DNA from: Mesorhizobium sp.
GTDB lineage: Bacteria; Pseudomonadota; Alphaproteobacteria; Rhizobiales; Rhizobiaceae
Reading direction: 5' to 3'
NCBI RefSeq assembly: GCF_016793485.1
Contig: NZ_JAEULZ010000016.1
Location: forward strand, 219,837-283,836
Length of the DNA: 64,000 nucleotides
A program made the translations under genes and the position numbers. Below, one piece after another: positions 17,910 to 33,090 of the stretch. Position 1 is the first letter of the stretch; each line of letters opens with the position of its first letter. The notes beneath the pieces are model-generated. The model had not been told where the DNA came from. It ran no database searches and saw only the letters and a list, made by a program, of their open reading frames with translations.

Positions 17910-17957
17910 AATTGGAGCGGGTGAAGCGATTCGAACGCTCGACCCCAACCTTGGCAA
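17910..17957. repeat. attL, 48-bp direct repeat with attR
   Basis: Identical to 33043-33090. It contains CCA, the acceptor 3' strand, the T arm and part of the anticodon arm of tRNA-Gly on the minus strand. Identity stops exactly after TTGGCAA, the anticodon loop, consistent with a 7-bp crossover region there. Beyond it, element DNA forms a 10-bp inverted repeat with the core (TCGACCCCAA at 17939-17948 and TTGGGGTCGA at 17967-17976). Confidence 0.88.
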
Positions 17958-18080
17958 AGTTGAGCCTTGGGGTCGACACGAGTCACTTAGCGGCGACAAA
18001 ATCGCTTGAAAAGCCTTGATTTGCAAGAAATGCATGGTCTATTTTAGTAGACAGCGGGTGACGGCAGTCGACGACAATTG

Positions 18081-18100
18081 TGCTGCCCGCGTGCTGCCCG
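18081..18100. repeat. Left integrase arm-type repeats (tandem)
   Basis: TGCTGCCCG occurs twice, 11 bases apart, starting at 18081 and 18092. The same tandem arrangement recurs near the right end (32961-32980), matching at 18 of 20 bases. It lies 120 bases inside attL and just before the integrase start, so binding there could also repress the gene. Confidence 0.6.
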
Positions 18101-18110
18101 AGGAATCGAC

Positions 18111-19352
18111 GTGCCCCAATCCCGTGTGAAACTTACAGACGCTGCGGTCGAACGTGCCGCTCTGCCGGACGGCAAGACAGAGGCCGTCTTCTGGGATTCA
18201 GACGTGACAGGTTTCGGGCTGCGCCTGCGCGGCGGCGCCAAGACTTTCATTCTGTTCTACAGACCCGCCGGCGCCGGCCGATCGGCGGCAATGAAGCGCG
18301 TCCGCATCGGAACGCCGTCGACGATCAAAACGGCCGAGGCGCGGAAGGTCGCGCTTGGACTACTCGGCAAGGTCGCCGGCGGGGGAGATCCAGCGAAAGA
18401 CCGCGCTGAGCAGAAGCGACGTGACAAGGCCACCGTTTCTGACTTGCTCGACGCTTACGAGAAAGACCTGAAGCGCCGAAAATACGTCGCGTGGACGATG
18501 GTGATGTCGACGCTCCGCAGGCGATTGAAGAAGCATTTCGCGAAGGATATCGCGACGCTCCGCGGTGCGGACTTCGCGGCCATCATCGAAGGACTACACA
18601 ATGACGGTAAACCAGGGGCGGCTGAAGAGTTCCGATCGCGTTGCCGAGCGTTCCTGTCCTTCTGCCAGGTGAAGGCCAAAGTGATCGAGCACAATCCGCT
18701 GTTCGGCTTCCGCCGCCAGCGGGCGACGCGTGCGGATCGGCTTAAGAAGGCCGACCATGGCCGGGCTCTGTCGGACGAAGAGTTGGTGAAAGTCTGGCGC
18801 GCCGCGGATGCCGCTACTGTGTTTGGGCGCTTTGTCCGCTTCCTTATCCTGACAGGCTGCAGACGTGGCGAAGGAGCGCGCGTCACACGTAGCATGATCT
18901 TGAAGGAAGGCGGGACGGCCGTGATCGATTTCCCGGCCGCGTTCGTGAAGCAAGGCCGAGGGCACAAGGTACCGGTAACTGATACGCTTCAAGGGCTGCT
19001 CGATCGCTGCACGGTCGACGCCCGATCGGATCTGCTGTTCCCGTCTGTTCGTACCGGTGGCGAAATGTCCGGCTGGAATAAAATGCGAGCTGGCTTGGTG
19101 AAGGATTCCGGGGTCACGTTCACTTTCCACGACCTCCGTCGAACGTTCCGAACCGGGCTATCGCGGCTCGGCGTCAGTACGGAGATGTCCGAACTGGCGA
19201 TCGGCCATGCTCGAGAAAACCTGATCGAAATCTACGACCGCGACGACGGGTCGGCCCGCATGCGCGCGGCATTCGACTTGTGGTCAAAACACGTCGCGTC
19301 AGAGCTGGCGAAGGCCGAGGCCAAGGACATGACGAGCGGAGTGTTCGCATGA
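18111..19352 (+). CDS. Tyrosine integrase
   Basis: A 413-residue P4-type integrase. An N-terminal arm-binding domain (DUF4102-like, VKLTDAAVERAALPDGKTEAVFWDSDVTGFGLRLR...) is followed by a SAM-like core-binding domain and the catalytic domain. The catalytic residues lie in LTGCRRGE (Arg, near 251), FHDLRRTF (His and Arg, near 340) and IYDRDD (Tyr, near 375). The GTG at 18111 is preceded by GAGGAA. The longer frame from 18078 would run across the arm-type repeats and is rejected. The gene is adjacent to attL and is predicted to integrate and excise the element at tRNA-Gly. Confidence 0.93.
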   Translation: MPQSRVKLTDAAVERAALPDGKTEAVFWDSDVTGFGLRLRGGAKTFILFYRPAGAGRSAAMKRVRIGTPSTIKTAEARKVALGLLGKVAGGGDPAKDRAEQKRRDKATVSDLLDAYEKDLKRRKYVAWTMVMSTLRRRLKKHFAKDIATLRGADFAAIIEGLHNDGKPGAAEEFRSRCRAFLSFCQVKAKVIEHNPLFGFRRQRATRADRLKKADHGRALSDEELVKVWRAADAATVFGRFVRFLILTGCRRGEGARVTRSMILKEGGTAVIDFPAAFVKQGRGHKVPVTDTLQGLLDRCTVDARSDLLFPSVRTGGEMSGWNKMRAGLVKDSGVTFTFHDLRRTFRTGLSRLGVSTEMSELAIGHARENLIEIYDRDDGSARMRAAFDLWSKHVASELAKAEAKDMTSGVFA

Positions 19353-19762
19353 CGGAAGCGAGGCCTCCCGACGGCCATGATGGTTTCGATATCCTGGCGG
19401 CGCTGGCAGTCCGGTGTGGCGTCAGCGTGGACGCTCTCATCACAGACTTGTCCGGGCCCACAGCACTCGCGAAAGTCACGCGCGAGATTTTGGGGCTCCA
19501 GGTATTGGCGCCTGCAGGCAGAGGCCGTCAGGCTGATGAAGAAAGCAACTGGCACATGTTCACCCGTGTCAGAGTTTTTAGGGAAAGCGGTCAGTCGCTC
19601 GACGAGGCCATCAACTCCTATTTGTTGACCCTCGGCGACGACGATCCTGACGGCGTGCGCCATGAGAGCACAAAGCGGCAATACAATCGTCTGAAAAAGA
19701 AGTGGCCGGACAAGCCCCTGGAACTGGCGGACCTGTTTGTCGGCCCGCCGACCGGGACATAA
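19349..19762 (+). CDS. Hypothetical protein coupled to the integrase
   Basis: A 137-residue protein starting at the ATG that overlaps the integrase stop (ATGA), so it is translationally coupled. I recognise no family. The C-terminal half is basic and helical (STKRQYNRLKKKWPDKPLELADLF). Coupling to the integrase suggests a recombination or maintenance role, but this is inference only. Confidence 0.65.
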   Translation: MTEARPPDGHDGFDILAALAVRCGVSVDALITDLSGPTALAKVTREILGLQVLAPAGRGRQADEESNWHMFTRVRVFRESGQSLDEAINSYLLTLGDDDPDGVRHESTKRQYNRLKKKWPDKPLELADLFVGPPTGT

Positions 19763-19817
19763 ATCGCCAGCATTTGTGTCACTGTTACCCCCGGCGATTG
19801 TCCGTCACTGTGTTGCC

Positions 19818-20060
19818 ATGACAACCCAAACGGAGGCCGCAGTGACGCCACGTCGCGGAATACTCATCCCTGATATCGGCGCTCTTCCTGCCGACGCACT
19901 TCTCACCCGCCAACAAATGGTGGCGCTGTCCGGATACTCGGAAGCGGCCTTTAAAAAGTGGGGGCGTCAGCGCCGCGGCCCTGCCTTCGTCGTAGTCGAA
20001 GGACGGCCGCGCTATCGTGCCGCTGACGCCCGCGCCTGGCTCTCAGGTGGCGCGACGTGA
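19818..20060 (+). CDS. AlpA/excisionase-type small HTH protein
   Basis: An 80-residue protein with the layout of a MerR-like HTH_17/AlpA domain: LTRQQMVALSGYSEAAFKKWGRQRRGPAFVVVEGRPRYRAADARAWL, ending in the usual 'Y..ADV.AWL' helix. Such proteins act as excisionases or activators of integrase genes in P4-like elements. The start is ATG 19818; the in-frame upstream part from 19737 is not conserved. The stop overlaps the GTG of the next gene. Confidence 0.8.
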   Translation: MTTQTEAAVTPRRGILIPDIGALPADALLTRQQMVALSGYSEAAFKKWGRQRRGPAFVVVEGRPRYRAADARAWLSGGAT

Positions 20061-20449
20061 CCGCGGCGTCAGCGTCACGGCGGGCACGTCGACGTGAACG
20101 GAGGTCCCAGAGCGTATTGCTCGAAAAGCCGCCTCTATTCCTGGACATTCGCCCTTTGACGCTGGCCGAGCTGGCCGCCGGCGAAGTGTGGACGCCAGAT
20201 CAAATGGTGCTCGAGGCTCGCCGATGTGACGAGGCTGGTAATCGCCTGCCGCCCGAGACTCTGCGCCTCACCCTGCCGCCCGAATTGCGGGCGAACACGT
20301 ACGAGAATGTAGTCGAGGTCGTGCGGCGCTTCCGGCGAATTTCGGAAGAGATCAGGGCTTACGTTGATGGCTTCGCATTGTTTATGCCGAAGGCAGGCGG
20401 GCCGATCGACGGGCTACCTATGTGGGCGGCGCGAACGGTTCCTGGATAG
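20057..20449 (+). CDS. Hypothetical element protein
   Basis: A 130-residue protein beginning at a GTG that overlaps the stop of the AlpA-like gene (GTGA). The N-terminus is strongly basic (RRARRRERRSQS), followed by a soluble acidic region. No family is recognised. It lies between the AlpA-like gene and the replication gene in one apparent early operon. Confidence 0.6.
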   Translation: MTAASASRRARRRERRSQSVLLEKPPLFLDIRPLTLAELAAGEVWTPDQMVLEARRCDEAGNRLPPETLRLTLPPELRANTYENVVEVVRRFRRISEEIRAYVDGFALFMPKAGGPIDGLPMWAARTVPG

Positions 20450-20569
20450 CTATTTGCCCGCGCGGGAGAAATCGCGGGCCAACAATTTCACGACGGACGA
20501 CCAACCAGAGAAACAAAAAGGCCGAGTCGGCGGTAACCGGCTCGGCCCGAATGCAAGGATTTTGGTCGT

Positions 20570-22819
20570 ATGCAATCTACCGAAAAGGCGCAGTCCGCGC
20601 AACCGTTTGGCGACGTCGTCGCCCTATTTCCGAGCAAGGCCAAGCCAACCCCAAAGGCCTCCGATGAGGCCGTCGCATTCTTAAAGGCGCTCGACGCGGA
20701 CGGATGGCACAACCTCGTCGCGCTTGACCCCTCGCGGGATCATGGTGCGCCGGTCGACGCGCGAACGTTCGCACCAGGCCAGTTCGATCATATCGCGAAA
20801 TGGATCGATGATTACGACGGCCGGTTCAACATCTACTTCACGGCCAACGAGCCAAAGGCCGGCGCCCCACATAAGAAGCTCGCGAAGGAAGACATCGGTG
20901 GCATCCGCGCGATTTACGCCGACATAGACCTGCCGTCTGGCGTCGACGCCGATCGCGGGCTCCGCGATCTGCAGAAGCCACTTGCCGCGTTCGAGCTTGG
21001 CGCCGCGCCGCCCACGTTTCGCGTCGACTCCGGTGGCGGTATCCAGCTGTTCTGGCGGCTCGATAAAAAATATGCACCCGGCCAATTTAGAGAATGGGCT
21101 GAAGGTCAGGGCCGCGCACTTGCCACACTCGTCGACGGCGACGCTGTCCAAAACATTGATCGTCTGATGCGTCTGCCGGGCACGCTGAACATTCCCACTC
21201 CAGCGAAGGTTGCCAAGGGTCGAGTGCAGCGCCGCAGCTCGGTGATCGCCAGCCATCCCGACCGGCTCTATTCGAGCGCCTCGCTCTCGTCCGCATTCCC
21301 TCCGATCTCGGCGCCGACCTGCACCACTGACCTCGCAAGCGAAGTCGCCACGGCGGCCGAAGCAATCGACATGGCCGAAGTCGATACGCTTTCGATCTTT
21401 GACGATCTGCCCGACGATTTGCGCGAGCGTTTCGGATCCGCGCTTGCGGAGCGGCCAAAGCTTGCCGCATTGTGGAGCGGTGACGCTTCGGCGCTGCTCG
21501 GAACTGATCGCACAAGCTCTGCATGGCGTGCAGCATTGGCCGCTCATCTGTCGCGCGGCGGCGGTTTCGACGCACAAGATTACGCAAGTCTCGTTTCGGT
21601 GTGGGATCATGCCGACCGAGCAAAGATCGACCATCGACAGCTGGCAAGGGATTGGGCGCGGTTCGGCGCTCCGAACGTCGCGCAGCGCGAAAAGGTCGAA
21701 GGGTATTTCGAGCCTGCCGGCGAAACCGCCGGCGCGACTGGGTCCGTTTTTGGAGGTCCAACGACCGACGACGTGTTTGCAACGCTGACGCTGAGCGATC
21801 TGCTGACAATGCCGGATCCGGTGTTCGTCATCGACCGTCATATTCCGGAGCGCAGTCTAGGATTCCTGTACGGCGAGCCTGGCGCAAAGAAGTCCTTCAT
21901 CGCGCTAGACTGGGCTTTGCATCTCGCCTATGGCCGAGACAATTGGCACGGCGATCCCATCCGCACGAAGTCCGAAGGCCACGTGCTCTATCTGGCGGGC
22001 GAAGGTGCGGCAGGAATGAAGCGGCGGGCGCGTGCTTGGCTGCAGCATCGCGGGATAGATGAGACTGATCCGCATCAGTCCCATTTCCATCTCCTGCCTC
22101 ACTCCGTGAATCTGATGCGCCCGGAAGACGTCTCGAAGTTGGTGCGCACTTTGCGCAAGTCTATCGGTGGTCAGGTTGCGGCAGTGGTCGTCGACACGGT
22201 ATCGCGCTCGATGCCCGGAGCGGATGAAAACCTGCAGAAGGAGATGACCCGCTTCGTCCAGGCCTGCGACCTGATCAAGCAGCAGTTCGGTTGCGTCGTG
22301 CTCGGCGTCCATCACGCCTCCCGCAACGGTGTAATGCGCGGTTCGACTGTGCTGCAGGGCGCCGGCGATTTCGTGTTTCGGCTAGACTGTAAGAAGGGCA
22401 AGCTGGCCGGCCGCCTGCACTGTGAGAAACAAAAGGATGCGCCGGACGGCTGGAGCGACGCATACCAGTTTCAGGTCGTACATCTGGGCGATGGGGCTTC
22501 GTCGCTTGTTCCCGTCCGCTCCGTGAGTGGAGGATCGACGGCGTTCACGCCCGAACTAGAGGCCCAGATCCTAGATACCATCGCCGCTGACTGGGATGCA
22601 GGCAAGCCATGGGCCAAGGCGAAGCAGGCCAAAGCTAGGTGGGCGCCAATACGCGTGCACCGCGAGTTCGGCATTCCGGTCGACGAAGCCACCCGTATCA
22701 TCGATCAGATGGAAGAGTCCGGTGTGATCGAGCTGGCCGTAGTGGATCGGAACAGCAAGCTGGTCGGCTACCGGGTAACCCAGGACGATGATGATTCTGC
22801 GGACGGAGTTTTCTCGTGA
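20570..22819 (+). CDS. Primase-helicase replication protein
   Basis: A 749-residue replication protein with two parts. The N-terminal 250 residues look like a RepB-type archaeo-eukaryotic primase: the acidic motif YADIDLPSG at about residues 116-124, RVDSGGGIQLFWRL, and NIDRLMRLPGTLN. The C-terminal part is a RecA-fold RepA-type helicase (AAA_25), with Walker A GEPGAKKS near residues 435-442 and Walker B AAVVVDTVS. The extreme C-terminus carries a small winged-helix-like region (VDEATRIIDQMEESGVIEL). Plasmid RSF1010 has the same activities on separate proteins; phage satellites often use a fused form. An iteron array starts 60 bases after the stop, so the protein probably drives replication of the excised element. 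Confidence 0.85.
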   Translation: MQSTEKAQSAQPFGDVVALFPSKAKPTPKASDEAVAFLKALDADGWHNLVALDPSRDHGAPVDARTFAPGQFDHIAKWIDDYDGRFNIYFTANEPKAGAPHKKLAKEDIGGIRAIYADIDLPSGVDADRGLRDLQKPLAAFELGAAPPTFRVDSGGGIQLFWRLDKKYAPGQFREWAEGQGRALATLVDGDAVQNIDRLMRLPGTLNIPTPAKVAKGRVQRRSSVIASHPDRLYSSASLSSAFPPISAPTCTTDLASEVATAAEAIDMAEVDTLSIFDDLPDDLRERFGSALAERPKLAALWSGDASALLGTDRTSSAWRAALAAHLSRGGGFDAQDYASLVSVWDHADRAKIDHRQLARDWARFGAPNVAQREKVEGYFEPAGETAGATGSVFGGPTTDDVFATLTLSDLLTMPDPVFVIDRHIPERSLGFLYGEPGAKKSFIALDWALHLAYGRDNWHGDPIRTKSEGHVLYLAGEGAAGMKRRARAWLQHRGIDETDPHQSHFHLLPHSVNLMRPEDVSKLVRTLRKSIGGQVAAVVVDTVSRSMPGADENLQKEMTRFVQACDLIKQQFGCVVLGVHHASRNGVMRGSTVLQGAGDFVFRLDCKKGKLAGRLHCEKQKDAPDGWSDAYQFQVVHLGDGASSLVPVRSVSGGSTAFTPELEAQILDTIAADWDAGKPWAKAKQAKARWAPIRVHREFGIPVDEATRIIDQMEESGVIELAVVDRNSKLVGYRVTQDDDDSADGVFS

Positions 22820-22880
22820 GAGCGGCTGCGACGAATACCGTATGTCAAAATGTAAAAGCCTGTTTCGGTCGGAAATCCGT

Positions 22881-23043
22881 TGCGGAAGTCTATGCGGAAG
22901 TCTGTTTTGCGGAAGTCTGCGGAAATGCGGAAATGCATACCGTAAGCTATTGGAATCATTCGCGAAACAACTTTGCGGAAGTCTATGCGGAAGTCTGCGG
23001 AAGTGGGGTAGCTAAGTCATTGATTTCATTGGATGCGGAAGTC
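22881..23043. repeat. Iteron-like array, candidate replication origin
   Basis: TGCGGAAGTC occurs perfectly at 22881, 22893, 22908, 22974, 22986 and 23034. Near copies start at 22918, 22926 and 22996. The block 'TGCGGAAGTC-TA-TGCGGAAGTC-TG' is present twice. All copies are in the same orientation, with spacings of 8-15 bases inside the two clusters. It lies directly behind the replication gene, as iterons do in many plasmids. The whole gap 22820-23237 is otherwise without a convincing gene. Confidence 0.75.
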
Positions 23044-23237
23044 TCATCGCTCTTACATAGTAGTAGGCGGCGAGCTTCGCCCGCTCCGCTTCGCTTCGCC
23101 GCCCTCACTTACGATGTCGATCACAGTGGTCCCAATTCGTATGTCGAGAACGTCGACCCCATGGGAATGCTTTGCCTTGGCGCAGCTGCGCGCTCCGCAT
23201 GCGATACCTCACGCGCGCCTATCTTTGGAGATGCGCC

Positions 23238-23810
23238 GTGACGCGCCGGGCGGAACATTTGCTTCGATGGACCAAGTCGCCGGAATGGGCCGCGATATCA
23301 TCCGCGCAAGCTCGGGCAAACCTGCGCGAGTTCTCTCTCCGCCCTCGATGCGGCGCCCACTGTCGGACGACGGGACAGCCGTGCCGCAATCCGGTCGTCA
23401 CCGGACGCGATCGCTGCAGGCTGCATGGCGGATCAGTAGGGCGCGGCGACAATTGGCATAAGCCCTCCTGGCCGAACGGGAAAGCGCCGAACGCATCGAC
23501 AAAGCTCAACCGCAAACTGACCGATCTCCAGCGGGCCGCCGATAAGCGCGCTGAGCGTATCGCCGCCATGACGCCCGACGAGCGTGCCGAATACGAACGG
23601 TGGAAACGGGACCATCAACCCACGTCGACCGCAGATCGGAAACGTAAGCGCGCCCTCCGCGATCAGAACGCCTGGGCGCGGGCCTCGGTCGAACGCCACG
23701 CCGACGCGAAACCGAAGACGCCCGAGTTGCTCGAGATCGAGCAGCGGCTGGCGGAACTAAGGGCGGAACTCGAACAACGCCGCGCGTTTGACGAGGGGGT
23801 GTTTGGATGA
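23238..23810 (+). CDS. HGG-motif phage-type protein
   Basis: A 190-residue basic protein. Its core RCGAHCRTTGQPCRNPVVTG...CRLHGGSVG matches the small Cys/His motif (CGA.TR.G.PC..P...G.RC..HGG) of a common phage-associated family of unknown function. A long charged helix follows (KLNRKLTDLQRAADKRAERIAAMT) and then an acidic coiled-coil end. The GTG start at 23238 follows a GGAG at 23227-23230; the longer frame from 23172 is not supported. In phages such genes often lie near terminase genes. Here it is followed 41 bases later by another phage-type gene. Confidence 0.7.
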   Translation: MTRRAEHLLRWTKSPEWAAISSAQARANLREFSLRPRCGAHCRTTGQPCRNPVVTGRDRCRLHGGSVGRGDNWHKPSWPNGKAPNASTKLNRKLTDLQRAADKRAERIAAMTPDERAEYERWKRDHQPTSTADRKRKRALRDQNAWARASVERHADAKPKTPELLEIEQRLAELRAELEQRRAFDEGVFG

Positions 23811-23851
23811 CGTGAAGCCGTCTCAACCACTCGATAAACAGGAGATGCGAC

Positions 23852-24238
23852 GTGGGTAAACCTAGGAATAGTGCCAGCCGAGAGCTGCAGGAAATGGACG
23901 CCGTCGAGCGCGTCACACATCGGATCAGGACAGAAGGAATCGAAGCCGCGCTCGATGCGCTGCTCGGCGTCTGTCGCGATGAAAAGTCGGCGGCGCCGGC
24001 CAGGTCATCGGCAGGCACCGCGATTTTTCGTGCCGCGGGATTCTTCGACGCGAATCGAGAGGACGCGACGAAGAAAGCTCCGAGTGAGATGTCCCCGCAG
24101 GAACTGGCGGCCGCGCTCCAGAAGCTCAAACGTGAGCTTTCTGAGCGGTCGCCGCCCGACGAAGCCGAGGGCGAAGAGGACACCGACCTGGATGGCGAGC
24201 CCGGCGAAGGCGACAAAAAGGGCCAGCTTTTCGACTAA
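23852..24238 (+). CDS. Phage-type protein, possibly terminase-small-subunit-like
   Basis: A 128-residue protein starting at GTG 23852 behind AGGAG. The first 70 residues are helical (GKPRNSASRELQEMDAVERV, then ALLGVCRDEKSAAPARSSAG). The C-terminal third is very acidic (DEAEGEEDTDLDGEPGEGD). The pattern resembles short proteins encoded just before large terminase genes in alphaproteobacterial phages, but no large terminase follows. The functional call is weak. Confidence 0.5.
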   Translation: MGKPRNSASRELQEMDAVERVTHRIRTEGIEAALDALLGVCRDEKSAAPARSSAGTAIFRAAGFFDANREDATKKAPSEMSPQELAAALQKLKRELSERSPPDEAEGEEDTDLDGEPGEGDKKGQLFD

Positions 24239-24323
24239 TCGTTGCGCGCCGCGCGCGGTTCGTGCGCGGCGTCACCGAATTTGGGAACCGACCTAACGCT
24301 TCTGAAGTTGTTGGCCGCAGTGA

Positions 24324-25079
<756 letters not shown>

Positions 25080-25330: not shown

Positions 25331-25639
25331 TCATTTGGATTGACGACGGGCTTCTCGCGCTGCTCTCTTTTCAGCGGCGCGGGCGTCCCATTCCGCTTTC
25401 CAGCGAGCGCTTTCGGCCTTTTCCTCGGCCTCGGCTGCTCGGAATTCTTCGACGTCTTTTCGATCGTACCGAGGCGGTCCCATCTTGTAGTAGGTGATTC
25501 TGCCCGTCGCCCGCAGGTACTCTAGGCGGCGGCGTGTGATACCCAGCAAATCCGCGGCCTCTTGTTCCGACATGAAATCGTAATCCCACGTCCCGCCGGT
25601 TGCGGTTGTCTCGGGGTCATCGTTTAGCCGATCGCCCAT
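25331..25639 (-). CDS. Helix-turn-helix protein, MerR/excisionase type
   Basis: A 102-residue protein. The HTH region EQEAADLLGITRRRLEYLRATGRITYYKMGPPRYDRKDVEEF is an excisionase-type winged helix, followed by a highly charged coiled tail (AEEKAESARWKAEWDARAAEKRAAREARRQSK). The ATG at 25639 has GGGGAG close by; a TTG 15 bases upstream is possible. Likely a small DNA-binding regulator of the element, perhaps tied to the recombinase upstream of which it is encoded. Confidence 0.7.
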   Translation of the reverse strand: MGDRLNDDPETTATGGTWDYDFMSEQEAADLLGITRRRLEYLRATGRITYYKMGPPRYDRKDVEEFRAAEAEEKAESARWKAEWDARAAEKRAAREARRQSK

Positions 25640-25985
25640 TAACTCCCCATTCAATTTTTGACCGCCAGTAATACGCCACAGCTATATTAATAATAGACGA
25701 TCTGTTTCGCGTAATTGTCAGTTTTGTCAGTTGACACGACTGACTAGATGCCATGCTTATAAAGTATACGGCAAAATAACACTTGACAATATTCTTGTGC
25801 GCGCCCCTAATCGTCGCAGCACGAAAAGCCGTAGTACGCTCTTCGCTGAGCGGTTTCGCAAATCAGTCCGGGGTCCGGTTGCGCATGTCCAAGGGGCAAC
25901 CCCAAAGGCAATCGGAGCTAATGTACCCTTGGCTTTTCGGCCCCGGCGCTGGCGCCGTTCGAAAGCGGCAGGAGGTACAAAAAAG
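25640..25985. other. AT-rich intergenic region with possible promoter
   Basis: This 346-base gap separates a divergent pair of genes and is richer in A+T than its surroundings around 25680-25800. A plausible sigma-70 promoter is TTGACA at 25783-25788, a 17-base spacer, then CCTAAT at 25806-25811, reading toward the gene at 25986. A frame open from 25731 crosses the region but lacks a start site of its own. Confidence 0.3.
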
Positions 25986-26345
25986 ATGGGCTTAGAGGTA
26001 GATTTAGATGACGCGTTGCGATCGTGGACTTTTCGATCGGGGCTGAAACCCCACTATGAAGACGAGCCGGTTATGCTGACCGCGTATGAATCAGGCTTTC
26101 CTGGGTACACAGAGGTGTCTGCCTTGGTCCCGGAGCACTTCGCTGTCGAAGGGCTGAGGGCATCGGTGTTTAATGACCGCGATAGTCTCAACCATAGCCG
26201 CAACGGTGCATGGTCAGGATTTACAATTGATTGGTCAACGGAGGGGCCTCGTAAGGTCGGAGTGGCGTGCCGCGTCCCTACAGAGTACGCGCCAGCGGTG
26301 TTTGAACGTTGGAGACGCATTCTCCAGCTGCCGGACCTAAAGTAG
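25986..26345 (+). CDS. Hypothetical element protein
   Basis: A 119-residue soluble, acidic protein with no recognised family. The start is set at ATG 25986, behind an excellent CAGGAGGT ribosome site nine bases upstream; the longer in-frame stretch from 25731 lacks one. It stands alone between two gene-poor gaps, which suggests an accessory (moron-type) gene with its own promoter. No function is claimed. Confidence 0.6.
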   Translation: MGLEVDLDDALRSWTFRSGLKPHYEDEPVMLTAYESGFPGYTEVSALVPEHFAVEGLRASVFNDRDSLNHSRNGAWSGFTIDWSTEGPRKVGVACRVPTEYAPAVFERWRRILQLPDLK

Positions 26346-26723
26346 CGAACCTGGCGTGGGCGGGGGCTTGGCCTTCATGGCCGGGCCCACCCCTGCCAAT
26401 ACCCCTTTCACACCGCCAAAACCCTCGTCGGCGCCAGCAGAAATTTCCGACGCGCTGGAACTTTTGAACATCCGTTCCGCACGCCACGGGAACGCCTCTG
26501 CCTCACGACTCCGGCCCGAGACGACGGCACTTCGTCGGCAGCGGCGAAACTTATAGGGGCTTGCACCACACCTTCGGATGTAATATTGTAACACTCTCTC
26601 TCGCCGGTAAATTTTGCGGAACTCGGGCGGCCGCTCTCGCGTCGGAAATTCCGACAGACTGCAATCGAAACCCTCATCACAGCAGCCGAGCTGCGCCGGG
26701 TTTCCTGCTGAGAGCGCCCCCTA
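26346..26723. other. Gene-poor stretch before the late block
   Basis: No convincing gene is seen in this 378-base stretch. An open frame from 26561 belongs to the reading frame of the 506-residue protein but starts far before its ribosome site. It probably holds the promoter of the following late-type operon. Confidence 0.4.
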
Positions 26724-27206
26724 ATGCAGCTTGCCCCCGTCATCCTTTCCAATCAAGAACTCGCCCGCGAACGCCTCGCTTGCGCCGCCCGCATGTTGCA
26801 GCCGGCCGAAGACGTGAGCGTCACGCACGCGACCGCGCTCGCGATCCAGCATCTGCTCGATGCTGCCTACATCACCAAAGGGAACATCGCCGCCGTAGCA
26901 CCGGAAGAGTCCCGCCAGGTTTCTGCGTTGCTGACCGCCGCTACGCCGCGCCTCGCCGCCGAACTCGAAGGCAAAATGGCCCCGGAAGTGGTCTATTTTC
27001 GAATGGGTACCGCCAAAGGCCTTCTCGCCGACGGCCACGACGAATTCTGGCCGGATCGCATCGACTACGCCGGCATGATGGCCGGCGATCTGGCGAGCAT
27101 CCACCATTCAGAAGCGATTGCAGCGCGCGGCTTTCCGATGCTGCGCGCAATCCGCATCAACCTGGCGACTGCGCAGAAGCGCGATCCCGACCAGCCGTTG
27201 CACTGA
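26724..27206 (+). CDS. Hypothetical protein, first gene of the late block
   Basis: A 160-residue, mainly helical soluble protein without a recognised family (start MQLAPVILSNQELARERLAC, later YFRMGTAKGLLADGHDEFWPD). It is followed 11 bases later by the 506-residue protein and so belongs to the block with the two large phage-type proteins. It could be a small virion or assembly protein; this is inference from position. Confidence 0.55.
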   Translation: MQLAPVILSNQELARERLACAARMLQPAEDVSVTHATALAIQHLLDAAYITKGNIAAVAPEESRQVSALLTAATPRLAAELEGKMAPEVVYFRMGTAKGLLADGHDEFWPDRIDYAGMMAGDLASIHHSEAIAARGFPMLRAIRINLATAQKRDPDQPLH

Positions 27207-27217
27207 GGTCAACCCCG

Positions 27218-28738
27218 ATGCCCAGCGTTCGCCGGAATTCATACTTCAACGATCCCGCCTTCGCGCAGGCTGCGTCGAACCTCTCCGCGCTCTTTGAGCC
27301 GCCAAGCGGCGCCGACGCAGCTGGCTGGGCGACAGCTAATGCCAAGCGCGAAGAAGCCAAGCGTCTACAGGACTACTACGATTATCAGCGCAATCCGGGA
27401 TGGGACCGCGAGACGTCCGACCGCATGGGCGTCGGCGCTGGCGCATTCCAGCCGAACCAATCCTATTACTCGGTCGACCAGGGCAATGCGACATCGCGAG
27501 CCAACAACGCCGCCGACAATGCCCGCGCCCTCCAGCAGACCGAAATCACGTCGCTTACCGATCTCTTCAAGCCGGTCAGTGAAGACGCCGTGCGCCCCGA
27601 AATTCCGGCCGATGTTGCGGGCCGTCTCGGCGTCGATCGCGCGCTGCCGGCTGTCCAGGGCAATCGCTCGCCGCTCTCGGAAACCGAGTGGAAAGCGGCG
27701 CAGGGCGATCGTCTCCTTTCTGACGACCAGATTCTGGATTTGATCGTCGGCGCCGAAACTCCGGTCCAGGCTATCGGCGAAGATGGCCGCGGGCGCTTCA
27801 TGTCGCCGGGCGCCGCCGTGCGCACCGGCGCGCAGCCCTACGAAAAGCCTTCCGATGCAAAGTTCGATAACTACCTCGCCGTTGGTCCTGACGGGAACGA
27901 GAAGCGATTTCTCGGCTACGTCGGCGATGATGGCAGGATTTTTGACGCCGATACGCGCCAACCCGTCCCACGTGTGGTCCGGAAAGAATCCACCGGTGGC
28001 GGCATGTCTTTCGAAACCGACGGGCAGGGCGGGATCAAGCTCAGCACCGGGAATGCAGCAGGCCTGACGACGTCGCGCGTTGGCGATCTGCAGCGCCAGG
28101 AAACGGAAAACACCCGCGCCGTCGCAGAACTTACAACGCTTTTTGACACCCTGCGTCCTGACGACTTGGGCGTAGCAGGCAACGTGAACGAACTGCTCAC
28201 CGACTACGGGGCCCAGATGTTCCCGACGCTGGCACGCCCTGACGTCGCCGGCACGCGTGCTCAGCTCGGCGCAACGACGCAGGGAATTGCCCGCGCCATC
28301 ATGCAAGACGAGCGACTTTCCGACAGCGACCGCCGCGCGGTCGAGCAGCTTATGGTCAGTCGCGGGTTCGACGAGTCGCTGGCCGGCGCGCGCGCCAAAC
28401 TTTCGACACTGATCGCTATGTCGGCGTATCGCGCCAAATATGCCAACACGGTTCGATCCGGCGGAGAGCGTCTGCCGCCGCTGGATCGCGCAATGCTGGG
28501 ACGTCTGGTCGATGAAAACGCGATCTCGCCTGCCGTCGCGCAGTCTTATGCAGAAACCGTCCTGTCCCGCACACCCCACTCACCAAATAGCGCGCTGCCG
28601 GGCGTCGATATTCAGCAAGGCGTGGACGCAGTCACTGGCGACGGCATTCGCAGCGTGGGCTCTGTCGACGAGGCGATGCAACTGCCGTCCGGCACCAAAT
28701 TTCGGACACCGGATGGTCGTGTGAAGGTGAGGCCGTAA
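27218..28738 (+). CDS. Phage-structural-type protein, 506 residues
   Basis: A hydrophilic protein of 506 residues with no membrane segment. It starts at ATG 27218 behind GAGG and ends immediately before the next ATG (TAAATG). Sequence features are short aromatic motifs near the N-terminus (SYFNDPAFAQAASNLSALF), a repeated QTEITSLTDLF / ELTTLFDTL type segment, and a helical C-terminal half. The composition and position before an ejection-type protein resemble internal virion proteins of podovirus-like phages, but I cannot name a family. Confidence 0.5.
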   Translation: MPSVRRNSYFNDPAFAQAASNLSALFEPPSGADAAGWATANAKREEAKRLQDYYDYQRNPGWDRETSDRMGVGAGAFQPNQSYYSVDQGNATSRANNAADNARALQQTEITSLTDLFKPVSEDAVRPEIPADVAGRLGVDRALPAVQGNRSPLSETEWKAAQGDRLLSDDQILDLIVGAETPVQAIGEDGRGRFMSPGAAVRTGAQPYEKPSDAKFDNYLAVGPDGNEKRFLGYVGDDGRIFDADTRQPVPRVVRKESTGGGMSFETDGQGGIKLSTGNAAGLTTSRVGDLQRQETENTRAVAELTTLFDTLRPDDLGVAGNVNELLTDYGAQMFPTLARPDVAGTRAQLGATTQGIARAIMQDERLSDSDRRAVEQLMVSRGFDESLAGARAKLSTLIAMSAYRAKYANTVRSGGERLPPLDRAMLGRLVDENAISPAVAQSYAETVLSRTPHSPNSALPGVDIQQGVDAVTGDGIRSVGSVDEAMQLPSGTKFRTPDGRVKVRP

Positions 28739-31700
28739 ATGGATACCCTCCCGACAACCTTCGGGCAGAAGCGACCACGCGACGCATGGGACCAGTTCCC
28801 CGACGCGCCGGCAAACGCGTCCGCCTCGCCGTCCGCCGGCGATGAGTGGTCGCGGTTCCCCGACGCGGCCCCCGTAGCTGCCGCTGCACAGTCGCCGGCA
28901 ATAGCGCAGCCAGCGCAGTCGGCGACGCCTCCCGCTGCGCGGCCGGCGCCCGTTGAGGACACGATCGGCGACAAGTCCATCCGCACATCTGCAGGAGTGC
29001 TCGGCGCGCCCGTCGACGCGATGAATTCAGTTCTGGACCTGATCGGCATTCCGACCAGCGAAGCCCCGCTTTTCGGTTCGAAGTCTATCGAAGGTATGAT
29101 GACGTCAGCATCCGGCTCGCGGGAAAGCCGCGATATCGCCGCAACCGCTCCCGGCGTCACCCAGGACGGCGGCGCGCCGCTGGGCCAGCGGGCGTATGAA
29201 TCGTTTCTCAACACGCCGAAAGCCACAGAGATTTTCTTTACCAAGAATTACGGGCCGGAAGGGCAGGGCTGGTATCGGCTGGCCGATCGCTTCGGCAATC
29301 CGACCGAGCGTTATGTTACGCGCGGCGAAGACGGCAGTGAAACGCTGTTCAATCCGCCCGGCATCGATCTTGGCGATATCGTCGGCATGATCGGCGGCGC
29401 GCCGGATCTCGCTGGCGCTGTCGCAGGCGGCGCAGCGTCTGTCCCGGCATACGCAGGCGGCCCGGTTACAGGCATTCCGGCATCTGCCGCCCTGTCATCG
29501 CTCGGCGCGCAGATGGTCGGCGAGAGTGTCGGTCGATTCTTCCCGGAGAATCGCGAGGCCGAACCAAGCATTGCCGACGATGTCTTGCCTCGAGCCGGCG
29601 GCGAAGCTCTGGCTGATACCGTGCTCGGCGTCGCCACTGGCGGCGCTGCGAAGCTCGGCACGGCCGTAGTAAACAAGGCTCGTGCGCCGTTCGCCCGTTC
29701 CGCATCTGATCCGATGGCGCGGGAGTTCCGCGCGGCTGCGGATCGGCTCGAGCAAGAGGGTTACGACATCGCGCCGTTGCCGTCCGAAAGCGGTGCTGGT
29801 GGTTTCGTGCCTCGCGCCGAGGGCTTTCTGGAAAAGCTGCCTGGTTCCGCGGAGAAGATGCGGCAATATCGCGAGGGCGGCGATCAGGCGATCGCGCGTT
29901 TCCAGGGCGATCTCGCTGGCGACGTTGACCCCACCGAAGTCGGTCGCAACGTTGTTGGTGAGCTGTCCACGCAGCGCAAGAATTTGACGATCGATCGCGA
30001 GCAGGCACTGCAGCGTTCCGACGAACTGATGCAAGCGCTGGAGCGAGGTTTAACCGAGCGCCAAGGCCCACGGATGAGCACGGAAGCGGCAGGCCAGCAG
30101 ACGCGGGCCGGGCTCGACCGTGCTCGCGGCGAATTCCAGAATGAAGCGCGCCGCCTGTACGATGCGGCCCGCGATTCGCCTGGCGGCCGCGATGCCATCG
30201 TAGACATGGGCCCGGTCCGCGAACAGGTCGACCGAATTCGCGCTGCGCTGCCCCCGTCCGCCGCCGGCGGACCGAGCACGCAGTTCGCGCCGGAAGGTCT
30301 GACTCGGCTGCTTGGCGGCGTTGATGAGATCGCCGATACGATGACGTTGGACCAGGCGCGCCAGATGCGCACGCTGGTTTCCGACGCGATCGACGATCGG
30401 AACATTCTGCCGGGCGTGCCAGAGCGCTATCTCGGCGAGCTGCGCCAGTCGCTCACGCGAGCCATAGACGGCAGTGTCGACCGCGTGCAGGATCCCACGC
30501 TGCGCGATGCGCTGGGCGCGGCCAACACCTACTATCGTGAAAACGTCGACCGCTTCAGCCGGAAAGGCGTCGCCGAAGCCTATCGGCCCGACACCAGCGC
30601 CGGCTTCGTAGAAGACAACAACCTCGTGGCGCGGCTGCTTTCCGGCCGTGGCAAGCCCGGTGTCATCCGCGAGACGCGCGATCTTATGGGCGCCAACAGC
30701 CCAGAATGGGCCGCGACGCGTCGCAATGCGATCGAGCAAATTCTTGACGCCGGCCGCGATCAGACGCGCTCTGGCCGCCGCGTCGTCAACGTTGATGGCC
30801 TAGTCGCGAAGCTGAACGCGCTCGATGACGAGGCTGTTTCCGAACTCTTCGGCGTCGGTGACGCGCAGCAACTCCGCAACCTTGCGGCCGACATATCTAA
30901 CCGTTCGAAATATCTCGATGCCGACGCGCTGTCGCAGAACGGCTCGCCGAACATCTTGCTGCAGCTTCAGGCAGCCGCACGCGCCGACGAACAGATCGCG
31001 CGGGACTTCCGCAACAATGTCGTGGCGCCGTTCCTGCGCGGCGAAGACGGAGCGGCGGCGAAAATGCAGTCGGCCGAGCTTGTGCCGTGGCTTTATCGCC
31101 GAGCGTCTCCAGATGAGGCAACCGCGGTCATGTCCCGTTTGCCTGCACCGATGCGCCAGGAAGTCGAGCGCGGCGTCGTTGCGGACATCATCGAAAGCGC
31201 GATTTCGAAGAACCGTGGCGATCTCGGCGCGGTGCGCCGGCTCGTGATCGAGGAAGCAAACCCGGCCGACAGCAATGGGATTGCTGAGCTACTCGGTGCC
31301 GGCAAGGACACCGCCAGCCGCCAGCAGGCCGCGCGGGTCAATGCGCTTCTGTCTCCCGAAAGCCGTCAGGCTCTGCGCGATCTGGCGCTGATCACGGCGA
31401 AGCGCCAGGAGCGCGACGCGACAACCGCGGCGATTGGCGGTCTGGCGGCCGGCGCCGCCGTCACCAACATCATCTCGAAACCGTCCACGGCGCTGCATGG
31501 CGCAATCATCGCACGCGGGCTTGCGCAGCTCATCACGACGCCCGCATTCCGCAACTGGGTGACGAACACGAAGCAGTTTCGCCCGAGCGTCGCCGGCCAG
31601 GCTCAGACAATCGCGGTTGCTCCCACGGTTGCCGGTATTGCCTCCGGCGCGCTCGGCGAAAACCAGGACGTACAGACGGCTTTACAGTGGCTGAACGAGG

Positions 31701-31819
31701 GGCTTTCCCAAGTCGACGAGGCCGGCAAACGCGTCTCTCGGCCTCCGTCTGGTGCAAAGTCCTGGGAAGATTATTTCGGCGGCGATGAGTTGATGGACGC
31801 GATCGGCGGCCGCAGATGA
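28739..31819 (+). CDS. Large internal-virion / DNA-ejection-type protein
   Basis: A 1026-residue protein. The N-terminus carries two 'W-x-x-FPDA' motifs (DAWDQFPDAP at residues 15-24 and DEWSRFPDAA at about 35-44) in an Ala/Pro-rich linker. This pattern is common at the start of phage internal-core and ejection proteins. A Gly/Ala-rich hydrophobic region follows (about residues 210-330: IVGMIGGAPDLAGAVAGGAAS...), which could insert in a membrane. Then come long amphipathic helices and, near residue 900, a second Ala/Gly-rich hydrophobic stretch. No lysozyme or transglycosylase active site is seen. It is the longest gene of the element. Its stop overlaps the next start (ATGA). Confidence 0.55.
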   Translation: MDTLPTTFGQKRPRDAWDQFPDAPANASASPSAGDEWSRFPDAAPVAAAAQSPAIAQPAQSATPPAARPAPVEDTIGDKSIRTSAGVLGAPVDAMNSVLDLIGIPTSEAPLFGSKSIEGMMTSASGSRESRDIAATAPGVTQDGGAPLGQRAYESFLNTPKATEIFFTKNYGPEGQGWYRLADRFGNPTERYVTRGEDGSETLFNPPGIDLGDIVGMIGGAPDLAGAVAGGAASVPAYAGGPVTGIPASAALSSLGAQMVGESVGRFFPENREAEPSIADDVLPRAGGEALADTVLGVATGGAAKLGTAVVNKARAPFARSASDPMAREFRAAADRLEQEGYDIAPLPSESGAGGFVPRAEGFLEKLPGSAEKMRQYREGGDQAIARFQGDLAGDVDPTEVGRNVVGELSTQRKNLTIDREQALQRSDELMQALERGLTERQGPRMSTEAAGQQTRAGLDRARGEFQNEARRLYDAARDSPGGRDAIVDMGPVREQVDRIRAALPPSAAGGPSTQFAPEGLTRLLGGVDEIADTMTLDQARQMRTLVSDAIDDRNILPGVPERYLGELRQSLTRAIDGSVDRVQDPTLRDALGAANTYYRENVDRFSRKGVAEAYRPDTSAGFVEDNNLVARLLSGRGKPGVIRETRDLMGANSPEWAATRRNAIEQILDAGRDQTRSGRRVVNVDGLVAKLNALDDEAVSELFGVGDAQQLRNLAADISNRSKYLDADALSQNGSPNILLQLQAAARADEQIARDFRNNVVAPFLRGEDGAAAKMQSAELVPWLYRRASPDEATAVMSRLPAPMRQEVERGVVADIIESAISKNRGDLGAVRRLVIEEANPADSNGIAELLGAGKDTASRQQAARVNALLSPESRQALRDLALITAKRQERDATTAAIGGLAAGAAVTNIISKPSTALHGAIIARGLAQLITTPAFRNWVTNTKQFRPSVAGQAQTIAVAPTVAGIASGALGENQDVQTALQWLNEGLSQVDEAGKRVSRPPSGAKSWEDYFGGDELMDAIGGRR

Positions 31820-32082
31820 CGGCGGTATATGAAGCTCGACCTGGCAAGGTCCGCGAATACAAGGGCCAGCGGTATCTCTGCACCGCAATTGAGCCCTACA
31901 CGCGCCGCGACGGCGCCGAAAGCGCAGTCGCAGTCTGGCGGTCAAACTGCGCCGAATGCGGCGCGAAGTTTCACTACAAGACCACGTGCCGCTTCATGCG
32001 GTTTCAGCCGAACAGGCGATGCACGAAGCACCGACGACCCGGCTCCGCAGTCTCAGTCGCTGCTCTCGCATCTCGACACTAA
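31816..32082 (+). CDS. Small putative zinc-ribbon protein
   Basis: An 88-residue protein with CAECGAKFHYKTTCRFMRFQPNRRCTKH: a CxxC pair followed by Cys and Cys-x-x-His that could bind one zinc. The start overlaps the stop of the large protein, so it is translationally coupled. The alternative frame from 31829 has no such pattern. Role unknown; probably the last gene of the late block. Confidence 0.55.
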   Translation: MTAVYEARPGKVREYKGQRYLCTAIEPYTRRDGAESAVAVWRSNCAECGAKFHYKTTCRFMRFQPNRRCTKHRRPGSAVSVAALASRH

Positions 32083-32133
32083 CTGCATGTTCTGATTTCC
32101 TTCCGATACGAACACATAAGGCCGGCTGATATT

Positions 32134-32955
32134 GTGAATCGCTACGTCGACAGTGGAATCCCAGTCATCCTGGGTTTGAACCTGGGCGAAGACATTGGGC
32201 ATGCCGTCGTGGCTTCGGGCCAAGTGTTCGGGGTTGCGCCGCAAGCCGACCAACTACCGACGAATCCTACAAGGGCCGAGTTTTGTTCCGCCTTCTACGT
32301 TAACGACGATCAGCAAGGGCCAAATCTTCGCATGCAATTGAAGGCGCCGGCGTCACATGGCGAGACGGACTACAGCGTCGAAGATGTAACATTTCTCATT
32401 ATCCCCCTCCCCGACAAAGTATTCGTGCCGGCAGAGAAGGCCGAAGCTTTCGCTTGGGATTTGCTACGCACACACGGAACACAATGGGAAAATCTGAAGG
32501 CCGATTACGCCAACGATTTGGGGACTTCAGTCGGCGTCGGTGACGTGTTCGTCGAAGCGCTCAATGACAACACGGTCATAGCTCGCACCTATTTGACCTA
32601 TGGCTGGAAGTACAAGCATAGACTTCTCCGCAATAGACTGAAAGATCCCGTTCACGAAGCGGCACGCGCAACCGAACTGCCTCGGTATGTGTGGGTCACC
32701 GAGTTCGGCACCCTTGCTTCTTTTTCCGAGCCAAAGTTCCAGCGACGGATCTTCGCTCACTGTGTTGTTGACGCGACGGCGAAAAGCATGGGCGACGACA
32801 GTCGCCTGTTCTTCCACGCGCCGGGAATCGTTATTTCCCGCGTGCACGATGCGGCGAACCCCAATGGGCCTTATACGCAGCACACGATCGTTATAGAGGA
32901 CGATCAGGCCTACTACCCGAAGCTTCGGGGAAATCTCGATTTCGCCGGATATTAA
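32134..32955 (+). CDS. Hypothetical protein, possible peptidase-like remnant
   Basis: A 273-residue frame starting at GTG 32134. Its N-terminus, YVDSGIPVILGLNLGEDIGHAVVASGQVFG, resembles the second half of a papain/C39-like fold (the 'GxPV...GHAV' His strand). The catalytic Cys that should come first is absent. Upstream, the same frame reads without stop only back to 32080, and no clear ribosome site is seen. The gene may be an N-terminally truncated copy. Cargo position beside attR is typical for accessory genes of such elements. I claim no function. Confidence 0.5.
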   Translation: MNRYVDSGIPVILGLNLGEDIGHAVVASGQVFGVAPQADQLPTNPTRAEFCSAFYVNDDQQGPNLRMQLKAPASHGETDYSVEDVTFLIIPLPDKVFVPAEKAEAFAWDLLRTHGTQWENLKADYANDLGTSVGVGDVFVEALNDNTVIARTYLTYGWKYKHRLLRNRLKDPVHEAARATELPRYVWVTEFGTLASFSEPKFQRRIFAHCVVDATAKSMGDDSRLFFHAPGIVISRVHDAANPNGPYTQHTIVIEDDQAYYPKLRGNLDFAGY

Positions 32956-32960
32956 TTCGC

Positions 32961-32980
32961 TGCTGCCCCGGTGCTGCCCG
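32961..32980. repeat. Right integrase arm-type repeats (tandem)
   Basis: TGCTGCCCC and TGCTGCCCG start at 32961 and 32972, the same 11-base spacing and orientation as at 18081-18100. They lie 63 bases inside attR. This placement on both arms matches P and P' arm sites of P4/lambda-type integrases. Confidence 0.6.
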
Positions 32981-32989
32981 CACAAAAGC

Positions 32990-33017
32990 AAAAGGCCGGA
33001 CGTTGATCCGGCCTTTT
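32990..33017. terminator. Terminator brought in by the element next to attR
   Basis: AAAAGGCCGGA / TCCGGCCTTTT, an 11-bp stem with a six-base loop. It ends transcripts of the element's last gene on the plus strand. On the minus strand it replaces the tRNA-Gly terminator that insertion displaced to 17873-17897. Confidence 0.7.
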
Positions 33018-33042
33018 CGCAACTGCTTAATTTCCTTGAGGA

Positions 33043-33090
33043 AATTGGAGCGGGTGAAGCGATTCGAACGCTCGACCCCAACCTTGGCAA
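33043..33090. repeat. attR, 48-bp direct repeat with attL
   Basis: Identical to 17910-17957. This copy restores the intact tRNA-Gly gene, with the 3' half supplied by the element. Confidence 0.88.

Follow-up and report, generated by a model that had tools for sequence, protein, structure and literature searches.

The 15,133-bp element (repeat-to-repeat spacing) found in the 64-kb window, that is, in the whole stretch of DNA analysed here, is very probably an integrative satellite of short-tailed phages of the N65 type, and a member of a family scattered through the Alphaproteobacteria. Our best reading is that this satellite family is undescribed and does not consist of decayed prophages. The original prediction of a phage satellite is supported by a gene order conserved in 13 other genomes and by purifying selection in one pair of elements devoid of head genes.

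Integration and replication functions

The element lies between two exact 48-nt att repeats (Table 1), the core of a longer repeat of 61 nt (93% identical, 17905-17965 / 33038-33098). Since the repeat corresponds to the 3′ part of an intact tRNA-Gly(GCC), the sole tRNA detected by ARAGORN in the window, the ends first proposed for this tRNA-Gly element are correct. Site-specific integration is borne out too, by the repeats and by the family matches of the integrase (PF13356, PF00589 and phrog_1; E 3.9e-45). This protein is 54-60% identical to the integrases of three related loci (L023, L025 and L026), and the Xis-like protein is 46-58% identical to its counterparts in the same loci. Alignment of the integrase against viral_contigs yielded six weak relatives only. 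One of them (L041) carries a recombinase approximately 40% like that of L026.

The element had also been credited with its own primase-helicase and iterons, and this holds: the helicase gene matches AAA_25 (E 5.8e-35), and directly 3′ of it lie seven copies of TGCGGAAGT. By repeat count, iterons are absent from L023, L061 and L066. A search with the helicase in 199 genomes of the order matched seven, including the window's own. Another of them, G230 (L045), holds a phage whose ORFs include TerS as well as TerL-like and capsid-like ones, and the other five (L034-L038) were viewed with 1.5 kb per side only. Among nine helicase loci, neither HGG nor TerS was matched in L028-L031, and TerL was matched in L031. 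Plasmids returned partial RepA-type matches only. Hence, of what is looked for in a phage satellite (a general definition is given in the accessible part of PMC13376191), we find integration between att repeats, a length within approximately 7-20 kb, an integrase and replication genes.

Table 1. Features of the element and its integration target (positions in the window).
Feature	Position	Strand	Basis or remark
att repeat, integrase-side copy	17910..17957	.	48 nt exact; 3′ part of tRNA-Gly
Tyrosine integrase	18126..19352	+	PF13356, PF00589, phrog_1; ORF open from 18078
Small protein	19349..19762	+	No family match
Excisionase-like (Xis) protein	19818..20060	+	phrog_66, E 4e-4
Small protein	20117..20449	+	ORF open from 20057
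RepA-type AAA_25 helicase (primase-helicase-like), phage type	20570..22819	+	Pfam, PHROGs
Iteron cluster, TGCGGAAGT x7, putative replication origin	22880..23045	.	Repeat search
CTAAGTCATTGATTTCATTG	23012..23031	+	Within iterons; common to N65 and some relatives
HGG (CxLHGG) zinc-motif protein	23172..23810	+	NF041373, E 5e-8; start uncertain, aligned from 23244
Short TerS-like protein	23852..24238	+	TerS profile; without N-terminal HTH part of phage TerS
Serine recombinase (resolvase/invertase type)	24525..25079	-	Stands where morphogenesis genes would be; ORF open to 25274
HTH_17 small DNA-binding protein	25331..25639	-	Family match
Protein	25986..26345	+	No family match
g13, conserved small protein, predicted all-helical	26724..27206	+	Directly upstream of ejection genes
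Ejection protein 1, homologue of N65 'putative injection protein'	27218..28738	+	Homology
Ejection protein 2, 1026 aa	28739..31819	+	Homology; DAWDQFPDA tag at the N terminus, also seen in podophage contigs
Small protein	31816..32082	+	No family match
Gene at tRNA end	32134..32955	+	No family match; start possibly truncated
att repeat, tRNA-side copy	33043..33090	.	48 nt exact
tRNA-Gly(GCC), intact, integration target	33046..33120	-	ARAGORN

Head, packaging and transfer genes

Pfam and PHROGs revealed no TerL, portal, capsid or tail family among the 19 ORFs beyond weak or chance-level matches; in PHROGs, 23852-24238 had a chance-level match to a head-tail adaptor (E 0.023) and 23172-23810 one to a scaffolding protein (E 0.069). 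A tblastn search of the whole window at E 0.01 with 31 queries, of which 29 were structural or packaging proteins and 2 DNA polymerases, gave no match. The same queries, run against the 14 loci of the family, matched solely GTA-type portal and capsid genes that lie beyond the element, in the flanking DNA of L051. Nor was a relaxase or mating gene present among the 19 ORFs (Pfam). The earlier observation that large terminase, portal, capsid and tail genes are missing, and relaxase and mating genes with them, thus stands for these 19 ORFs and, as regards the phage genes, for the 29 queries. The element contains neither the TerL, portal and capsid genes that a cfPICI would have of its own, nor the complete head and tail module of an N65-type prophage.

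Ejection genes

Phage-type late genes had been predicted, and two were found. They are not free of structural function, being homologues of podophage ejection proteins, that is, of virion proteins, and the element is therefore not wholly devoid of structural genes. For ejection protein 1, Rhizobium phage RHph_N65 (MN988536; N65 hereafter) was the sole match among 50,697 phage records (38% identity), and viral_contigs gave nothing of use. The second ejection gene found nothing useful in the 50,697 phages, and nothing in 101 whole genomes besides the window's own. Its type is absent from all relatives; the second ejection genes of the family members are of three types, with no detectable similarity among types.

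Three ejection alignments, run as profiles against the PDB, found nothing credible, and the term 'ejection' therefore rests on the annotation of N65, gene position and motifs. The background of the tail motif was 0/148 without the early genes of the prophage of genome G393 (4/158 with them). PHROGs gave no name for gp8-gp11 of N65 or for its portal candidate. The AlphaFold model of g13 is confidently all-helical (pLDDT 89), and Foldseek and VIA-align found nothing above the usual helical-bundle level for it. A satellite in the strict sense would have zero structural genes and this element has two by homology; we therefore call it a satellite variant rather than a standard member.

The HGG protein and the short TerS

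We assign the role of candidate TerS to 23852-24238 rather than to the HTH_17 gene, whose excisionase match (7.9e-6) exceeds its weak terminase-small-subunit match (4.3e-5). Of the own TerS expected of a PICI, a TerS-like gene is present, with the HTH part missing. The satellite TerS profile matches the TerS of the G393 prophage, of N65 and of four viral contigs, two of which encode the same protein (five E values at 4e-9 to 3e-11, one at 3e-4), and, in contrast to the short TerS, all of these phage TerS retain an HTH-like part at the N terminus.

By called coordinates, the HGG and TerS genes overlap by 4 bp in 9/12 unfused pairs, the exceptions being the window, L024 and L064; in L061 both are fused in a single ORF. 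In two phage contigs, HGG stands before TerL. TerS appears to be divided between the HGG protein and the short TerS, and we propose the HGG protein as the part that recognizes DNA. Neither protein had a tblastn match in the 50,697 phage records (E 1e-3), and the short TerS found nothing of use in viral_contigs. The AlphaFold model of the short TerS (pLDDT 74) gave no informative match in a structure search.

A family with one gene order

Relatives were found in 13 other alphaproteobacterial genomes, eight via the helicase and five via TerS, with several members in the profile seeds. They share, with some gaps, the order helicase, HGG, TerS-like, serine recombinase, small helical protein (g13) and ejection gene(s). 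Counting the genes that each locus has, this order is the same in 14/14 loci including the window. The TerS profile and the serine recombinase were matched in all 14, the helicase in 13, HGG in 12 by profile (plus L052 by reading frame), an N65- or G393-type ejection gene in 12 and g13 in 10. In L024 and L027 gp11 is a short remnant, in L025 no ejection gene was seen and in L023 an LPD23-domain protein occupies its place; ejection genes are therefore not universal.

A satellite had been expected to recur at tRNA-Gly with conserved gene order and size. The order is indeed conserved in the 13 genomes, and the three relatives bounded by tRNA repeats (L023, L049 and L052) measure 10.7, 11.2 and 14.5 kb, but their targets are tRNA-Pro, tRNA-Thr and tRNA-Val, and none is tRNA-Gly. 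A search for att repeats in L024-L027, L051, L061, L062 and L064-L066 was negative. The fetched stretches of L065 and L066 contain no integrase, and the next integrase of L051 lies approximately 8 kb beyond the stretch fetched (L063).

To assess selection, dN/dS was calculated for 11 gene pairs of one pair of headless relatives, L062 and L064, the window's copy standing outside the comparison. Values were 0.07 for the integrase and TerS, 0.08 for ejection 2, 0.24 for ejection 1 and 0.29 for the helicase. This purifying selection between two headless elements speaks against decay.

N65-type phages and the origin of the element

Closely related elements with a full head and tail module would have pointed to a decayed prophage. 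N65-type phages do share the helicase (41% identity) and the first ejection gene, but the loci that also share HGG, short TerS, recombinase and the small gene yielded no match to head or tail genes. N65 and the prophage on G393:C20 resemble the element in that iterons follow the helicase, and the satellites in the place and C-terminal half of TerS, in gp8-gp11 and in a collinear map. Unlike the element, they have their own DNA polymerase, TerL, portal and capsid genes and an HTH-like part on TerS, with no HGG, g13 or recombinase by profile. Likewise, g13 and the recombinase were not detected in 21 phage contigs, many of them partial, or in the G393 prophage.

In genome G393, a satellite (L049) occurs alongside an N65-type prophage that seems complete and encodes TerS, TerL, portal, capsid and gp8-gp11. 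Between the two, the helicase is 71% identical and the ejection protein gp9 79%, as against 40% between the gp9 of L049 and that of N65. This fits a refinement of the satellite reading, for which we see even chances, namely that a deletion in an N65-type phage gave rise to the family, whose members repeatedly take up ejection and replication genes anew from local phages. The three dissimilar types of second ejection gene, the variable helicases and the recombinase type, which differs between the otherwise close L062 and L064, agree with it; on the other hand, the comparison covers just two complete N65-type genomes.

The element could instead be an N65-type prophage that decayed through an internal deletion from TerL to tail, the gap being filled by a recombinase gene, and that persists as an intact but idle remnant. 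Collinearity with N65 and the G393 prophage (int..hel..TerS..[missing]..gp8-gp11..att), the ejection genes broken or missing in L024, L025 and L027, and the lack of an N65-type helper in the window's genome would all suit such a history. We nevertheless consider it improbable: the same gap is filled by a serine recombinase in 14/14 loci, the N65-type phages examined yielded neither HGG with short TerS nor g13 nor the recombinase, and selection was purifying while two headless elements diverged. An IME or ICE (mobilisable or conjugative integrative element) with acquired phage genes is hardly credible: the tRNA integrase and replication gene would fit it too, but the 19 ORFs scanned with Pfam include no relaxase, for which reason this identity was dropped, and the TerS-like and ejection genes indicate phage packaging.

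Concerning helpers, a close N65-type TerL occurs in 1/14 satellite genomes and only distant ones in 2/14. The window's genome contains no close one; reading its ORFs gave a GTA-like cluster, a podovirus-type prophage of a different sort and a lone distant TerL. The GTA-like cluster was rejected as being the element itself, for it sits on another contig, C34.

Proposed life cycle and known satellites

We infer that the satellite uses a helper and is packaged by it. Upon growth of the helper phage, the element would be excised by its own integrase and Xis and would replicate from the iterons with its own helicase. The HGG protein and the short TerS might then act jointly as TerS, steering the helper TerL to satellite DNA, which would be packed into helper heads. 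Satellite ejection proteins would enter these heads, replacing the helper's or alongside them, so that the DNA and the pilot proteins delivered by the particles would both be those of the satellite. The serine recombinase may, as a guess, resolve multimers. It is conceivable, if somewhat short of probable, that the hallmark of the family is precisely this: helper particles re-equipped with satellite ejection (pilot) proteins, and packaging via a two-part TerS in which the CxLHGG zinc protein reads DNA and the short TerS docks on the helper motor.

SaPIs have their own replication gene and origin and a TerS, without TerL or capsid. The element resembles this PICI/SaPI type in size (10-15 kb), in having an integrase with an att site, a replication gene and origin of its own and a TerS-like gene, and in the absence of TerL and capsid. 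It differs in that its helicase and TerS-like protein are related to those of N65-type phages, TerS is apparently split, it carries virion ejection genes, and none of its proteins was assigned as a regulator of the AlpA or Stl type. cfPICIs carry genes for capsid and packaging; they are like the element in supplying some virion proteins themselves, whereas the element keeps ejection proteins alone. PICMI, PLE and P4-like satellites are set apart by their hosts and gene content, which differ from those of the element. They are small and integrative, as it is, and helper-dependent, as it would be (accessible parts of PMC11389934 and PMC10803314), and satellite families including cfPICI are named in the former. 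Compared with known satellites, the satellite-encoded ejection proteins and the apparently split TerS, fused in one relative, are unusual.

Within the literature open to us, most subscription papers being out of reach, no paper joined 'phage satellite' with 'ejection proteins' or 'phage satellites' with Methylobacterium, and no title described such satellites in Alphaproteobacteria or rhizobia. The accessible part of PMC7290940 reports that gp44, the ejection protein of phage 80alpha, is not needed for SaPI transfer, and its authors suggest that packaged concatemers may be the reason. Against this background, satellites in which purifying selection maintains ejection proteins would form a contrast. 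If our reading is true, a further satellite group would be on record in rhizobia, methylobacteria and related bacteria, its likely helper phages would be indicated, and the question of why a packaging parasite brings its own injected proteins could be put to the test. The HGG-TerS pair would also hint at what HGGxSTG-domain proteins do.

Possible regulators

PADLOC returned a single weak HTH match for 10 window proteins. Within the element, the HTH_17 and Xis-like proteins are the possible regulators.

An integrated element with a replication module and ejection-gene homologues

Two exact copies of a 48-nt repeat, the 3′ part of tRNA-Gly(GCC), enclose a 15,133-bp element, bearing out the original prediction of a tRNA-Gly element. 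Its own replication module (RepA-type helicase, with iterons behind the gene) was recovered as predicted, and searches of the element for TerL, portal, capsid, tail and relaxase genes came up empty, again as foreseen.

Features of the element, in left-to-right order in the window, and of comparison loci
Feature	Location	Strand	C-terminal end (position)
Repeat copy	17910-17957
Integrase			SGVFA (19352)
Small gene
Xis-like gene
Small gene
RepA-type helicase			DGVFS (22819)
Iterons, repeats around core	22880-23045
HGG (CxLHGG zinc-motif) protein			EGVFG (23810)
TerS-like protein			QLFD (24238)
Serine recombinase		minus
HTH_17 gene		minus
Unknown gene
g13 (small, predicted all-helical)
Ejection gene 1	27218-28738	+
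Gene 1 tail and gene 2 tag	28650-28870
Ejection gene 2	28739-31819	+
Two more genes
Repeat copy	33043-33090
tRNA-Gly(GCC)	33046-33120	minus
Serine recombinase, L062	10890-11573
Serine recombinase, L064	10938-11702
Gene with highest dN/dS, L062	5391-6242
HGG gene and TerL, viral contig L058	4739-6791

The predicted phage-type late genes are present and read, by homology and place, as virion ejection genes. Among 50,697 phage records, only that of Rhizobium phage RHph_N65 (N65) has a match to ejection gene 1 (38% over 42% of the query); there the gene is named 'putative injection protein' and sits in a run between a capsid (phrog_9953) and a gene named lysin. Furthermore, the window and five viral contigs have a common gene 1/gene 2 boundary, at which gene 1 has a C-terminal end like SGTxFxTPDGRxKVRP, and a repeated DxWxQFPDA-like tag stands at the start of gene 2; the whole ORF list of one of these contigs is podophage-like, as judged by eye. 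No PHROG or structure support was found for the ejection identity. The gene 1 tail and gene 2 tag are conserved in proteins otherwise little alike (window, loci L002-L006, relative L026), and are possibly virion loading signals.

A family with a conserved plan

Two peptide patterns from a helicase alignment, scanned against genome_contigs (84,980 species), yielded nine confirmed loci, five of them with the window's layout (L023-L027). In 198 genomes of one family, a helicase search gave five places in four genomes: members L049, L051 and L052, phage L045 and full prophage L050. A TerS profile added five members (L061, L062, L064-L066). In counts that include the window's own genome where sampled, this profile matched 3 of 199 genomes of the order, 1 of 190 of the class, and 4 of 18, 1 of 12 and 3 of 198 genomes of three families; in the last family it also matches a prophage TerS in one genome. 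The family is thin but wide in distribution. Six IMG/VR scans returned no locus that we recognised as a member.

Borders, integrases and ejection genes of the 14 members (gp8-gp11, ejection genes of N65 or of the N65-type prophage of genome G393)
Member	Genus	Border	Integrase	Ejection gene
Window	Mesorhizobium		first type	gp10; gene 2 of a third type, distinct from both gp11 types
L023	Tranquillimonas	tRNA-Pro, 39 nt exact repeat, 11,215 bp	first type	LPD23-domain protein at this place
L024	Methylobacterium		second type	gp8; pieces of N65-type gp11
L025	Methylobacterium		first type	none seen
L026	Alsobacter		first type	gp10; N65-type gp11
L027	Tardiphaga		second type (weakly)	gp9; pieces of N65-type gp11
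L049		tRNA-Thr, 50 nt exact repeat, 10,706 bp	second type	gp9
L051			not found in examined stretch	G393-type gp11
L052		tRNA-Val, 48 nt exact repeat, 14,476 bp	second type	G393-type gp11
L061			third kind, beside tRNA-Glu	G393-type gp11
L062			second type	gp10; N65-type gp11
L064			second type	gp10; N65-type gp11
L065			not found in examined stretch	gp9; gp10; N65-type gp11
L066			not found in examined stretch	gp10; N65-type gp11

Run over the 14 loci (309 called proteins), our own profiles, whose seeds include members, found TerS and a serine recombinase in all 14, the helicase in 13, HGG in 12 (13 counting L052) and g13 in 10. An N65- or G393-type ejection gene is present in 12, and gene order is identical in all 14 for the genes that each has. 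The expected recurrence at tRNA-Gly with conserved order and size thus held for order, but bounded relatives lie at tRNA-Pro, tRNA-Thr or tRNA-Val and span 10,706-14,476 bp. In these three and the window the integrase adjoins the repeat copy lacking an intact tRNA. Borders were sought in the other ten relatives and none was found, so sizes are given for the bounded members. L062 and L064, otherwise very similar, carry serine recombinases of different types at the same place.

Satellite or decayed prophage

We screened the 14 loci at E 0.01 with 29 structural or packaging proteins and 2 polymerases, 31 queries in all, taken from N65, two viral contigs, the G393 prophage, the G230 phage, and the C13 prophage and GTA-like cluster of the window's genome. 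Matches were confined to the flank of L051 and involved GTA-type portal and capsid; locus L063, beyond L051, gave none. Five control sequences recovered 22 queries, the GTA, C13 and Q_gp4 queries being without a control there. Selection was assessed with our own Nei-Gojobori script on 11 gene pairs of L062 and L064 (two genomes of one genus), the one pair on which this evidence is based, with the window's copy outside it. dN/dS ranged from 0.03 to 0.56: integrase 0.07, TerS 0.07, ejection gene 2 0.08, two small genes 0.20, ejection gene 1 0.24, helicase 0.29, g13-like gene 0.32, HGG 0.43, and 0.56 for one further gene. The head-gene screen had no match in L062 or L064, so at least part of this selection took place in the headless state. 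Of the two readings, a satellite has far stronger support than a decayed prophage.

The element shows all general satellite features tested except a strict absence of structural genes, which its ejection genes break; we therefore call it a satellite variant. It does not belong to the cfPICIs, and its genes do not establish it as a PICI. We infer that it uses a helper phage and that its DNA is packaged, in which its ejection proteins would have a role.

Candidate helper phages

Genome G393 carries satellite L049 and, on a separate contig, an apparently complete N65-type prophage (DNA polymerase 66%, TerL 52%, portal 61% and capsid 73% against N65) that also has TerS and gp8-gp11. The two share helicase (71% identity over 619 residues) and gp9 (79% over 178); their iterons differ. 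Three of the 14 member genomes match an N65-type TerL profile: G393 is a close match, the window's own genome and G191 are merely distant ones. The window's genome, read by eye, holds a GTA-like cluster (contig C34), a podovirus-type prophage of a different sort whose terminase gene is split into two pieces (C13) and, on C49, a lone TerL. The helper of the window's element, if any, would come from outside its genome. At 15.1 kb the element has about one third the length of the 48.7-kb N65, and the capsids of SaPI1 are one third the volume of those of the phage (PMC7290940), together a hint, no more, toward the satellite reading.

HGG and TerS

N65 gp56 is TerS by phrog_51 (E 1.9e-4). By eye, gp56 and the TerS of the G393 prophage and of viral contigs L007/L008, L010 and L017 have an N-terminal HTH-like part; the satellite TerS profile matches them at E 4e-9 to 3e-11 (L017, 3e-4). 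L026, in which no HGG gene was found, has a full-form TerS (PF03592 E 3.3e-5, slightly short of the Pfam cut-off); in the other 13 members an HGG gene is followed by a short TerS. Of the 12 unfused pairs of these two genes, 9 show a 4-bp overlap in the called coordinates (window, L024 and L064 lack the overlap), and in L061 they form a single 282-aa ORF. HGG is predicted to supply DNA recognition for the short TerS. HGG genes also lie upstream of TerL in viral contigs L058 (directly) and L059; the position before TerL is the usual place of TerS.

Repeats behind the helicase and a common protein tail

The helicases of the window and N65 share 41% identity. Behind the window's helicase gene TGCGGAAGT occurs seven times, and the iterons also hold a core near CTAAGTCATTGAAATCATTG. 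A repeat cluster (a 9-mer at least three times) lies behind the replication gene in N65 and 11 of the 14 members, its sequence differing from element to element; it is absent from members L023, L061 and L066. A pattern search recovered the core in N65, the window, L024, L025, L026 and L049, and inspection by eye added viral contigs L007/L008, L010 and L017; the remaining nine members gave no match. In all the elements with the core, it is surrounded 3′ of the helicase by element-specific repeats, an arrangement that may represent a distinct type of origin.

Early proteins of the window, N65 and the G393 prophage have a common C-terminal tail, [GDSN][VIL]F[DGASENRQ]. With early regions set after the matches were seen, it occurs in 10 of 39 early and 0 of 24 late proteins of N65, and in 10 of 28 and 0 of 23 of the G393 prophage; in other genes the count is 0 of 148. 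The tail resembles the SSB tip and may be a docking signal.
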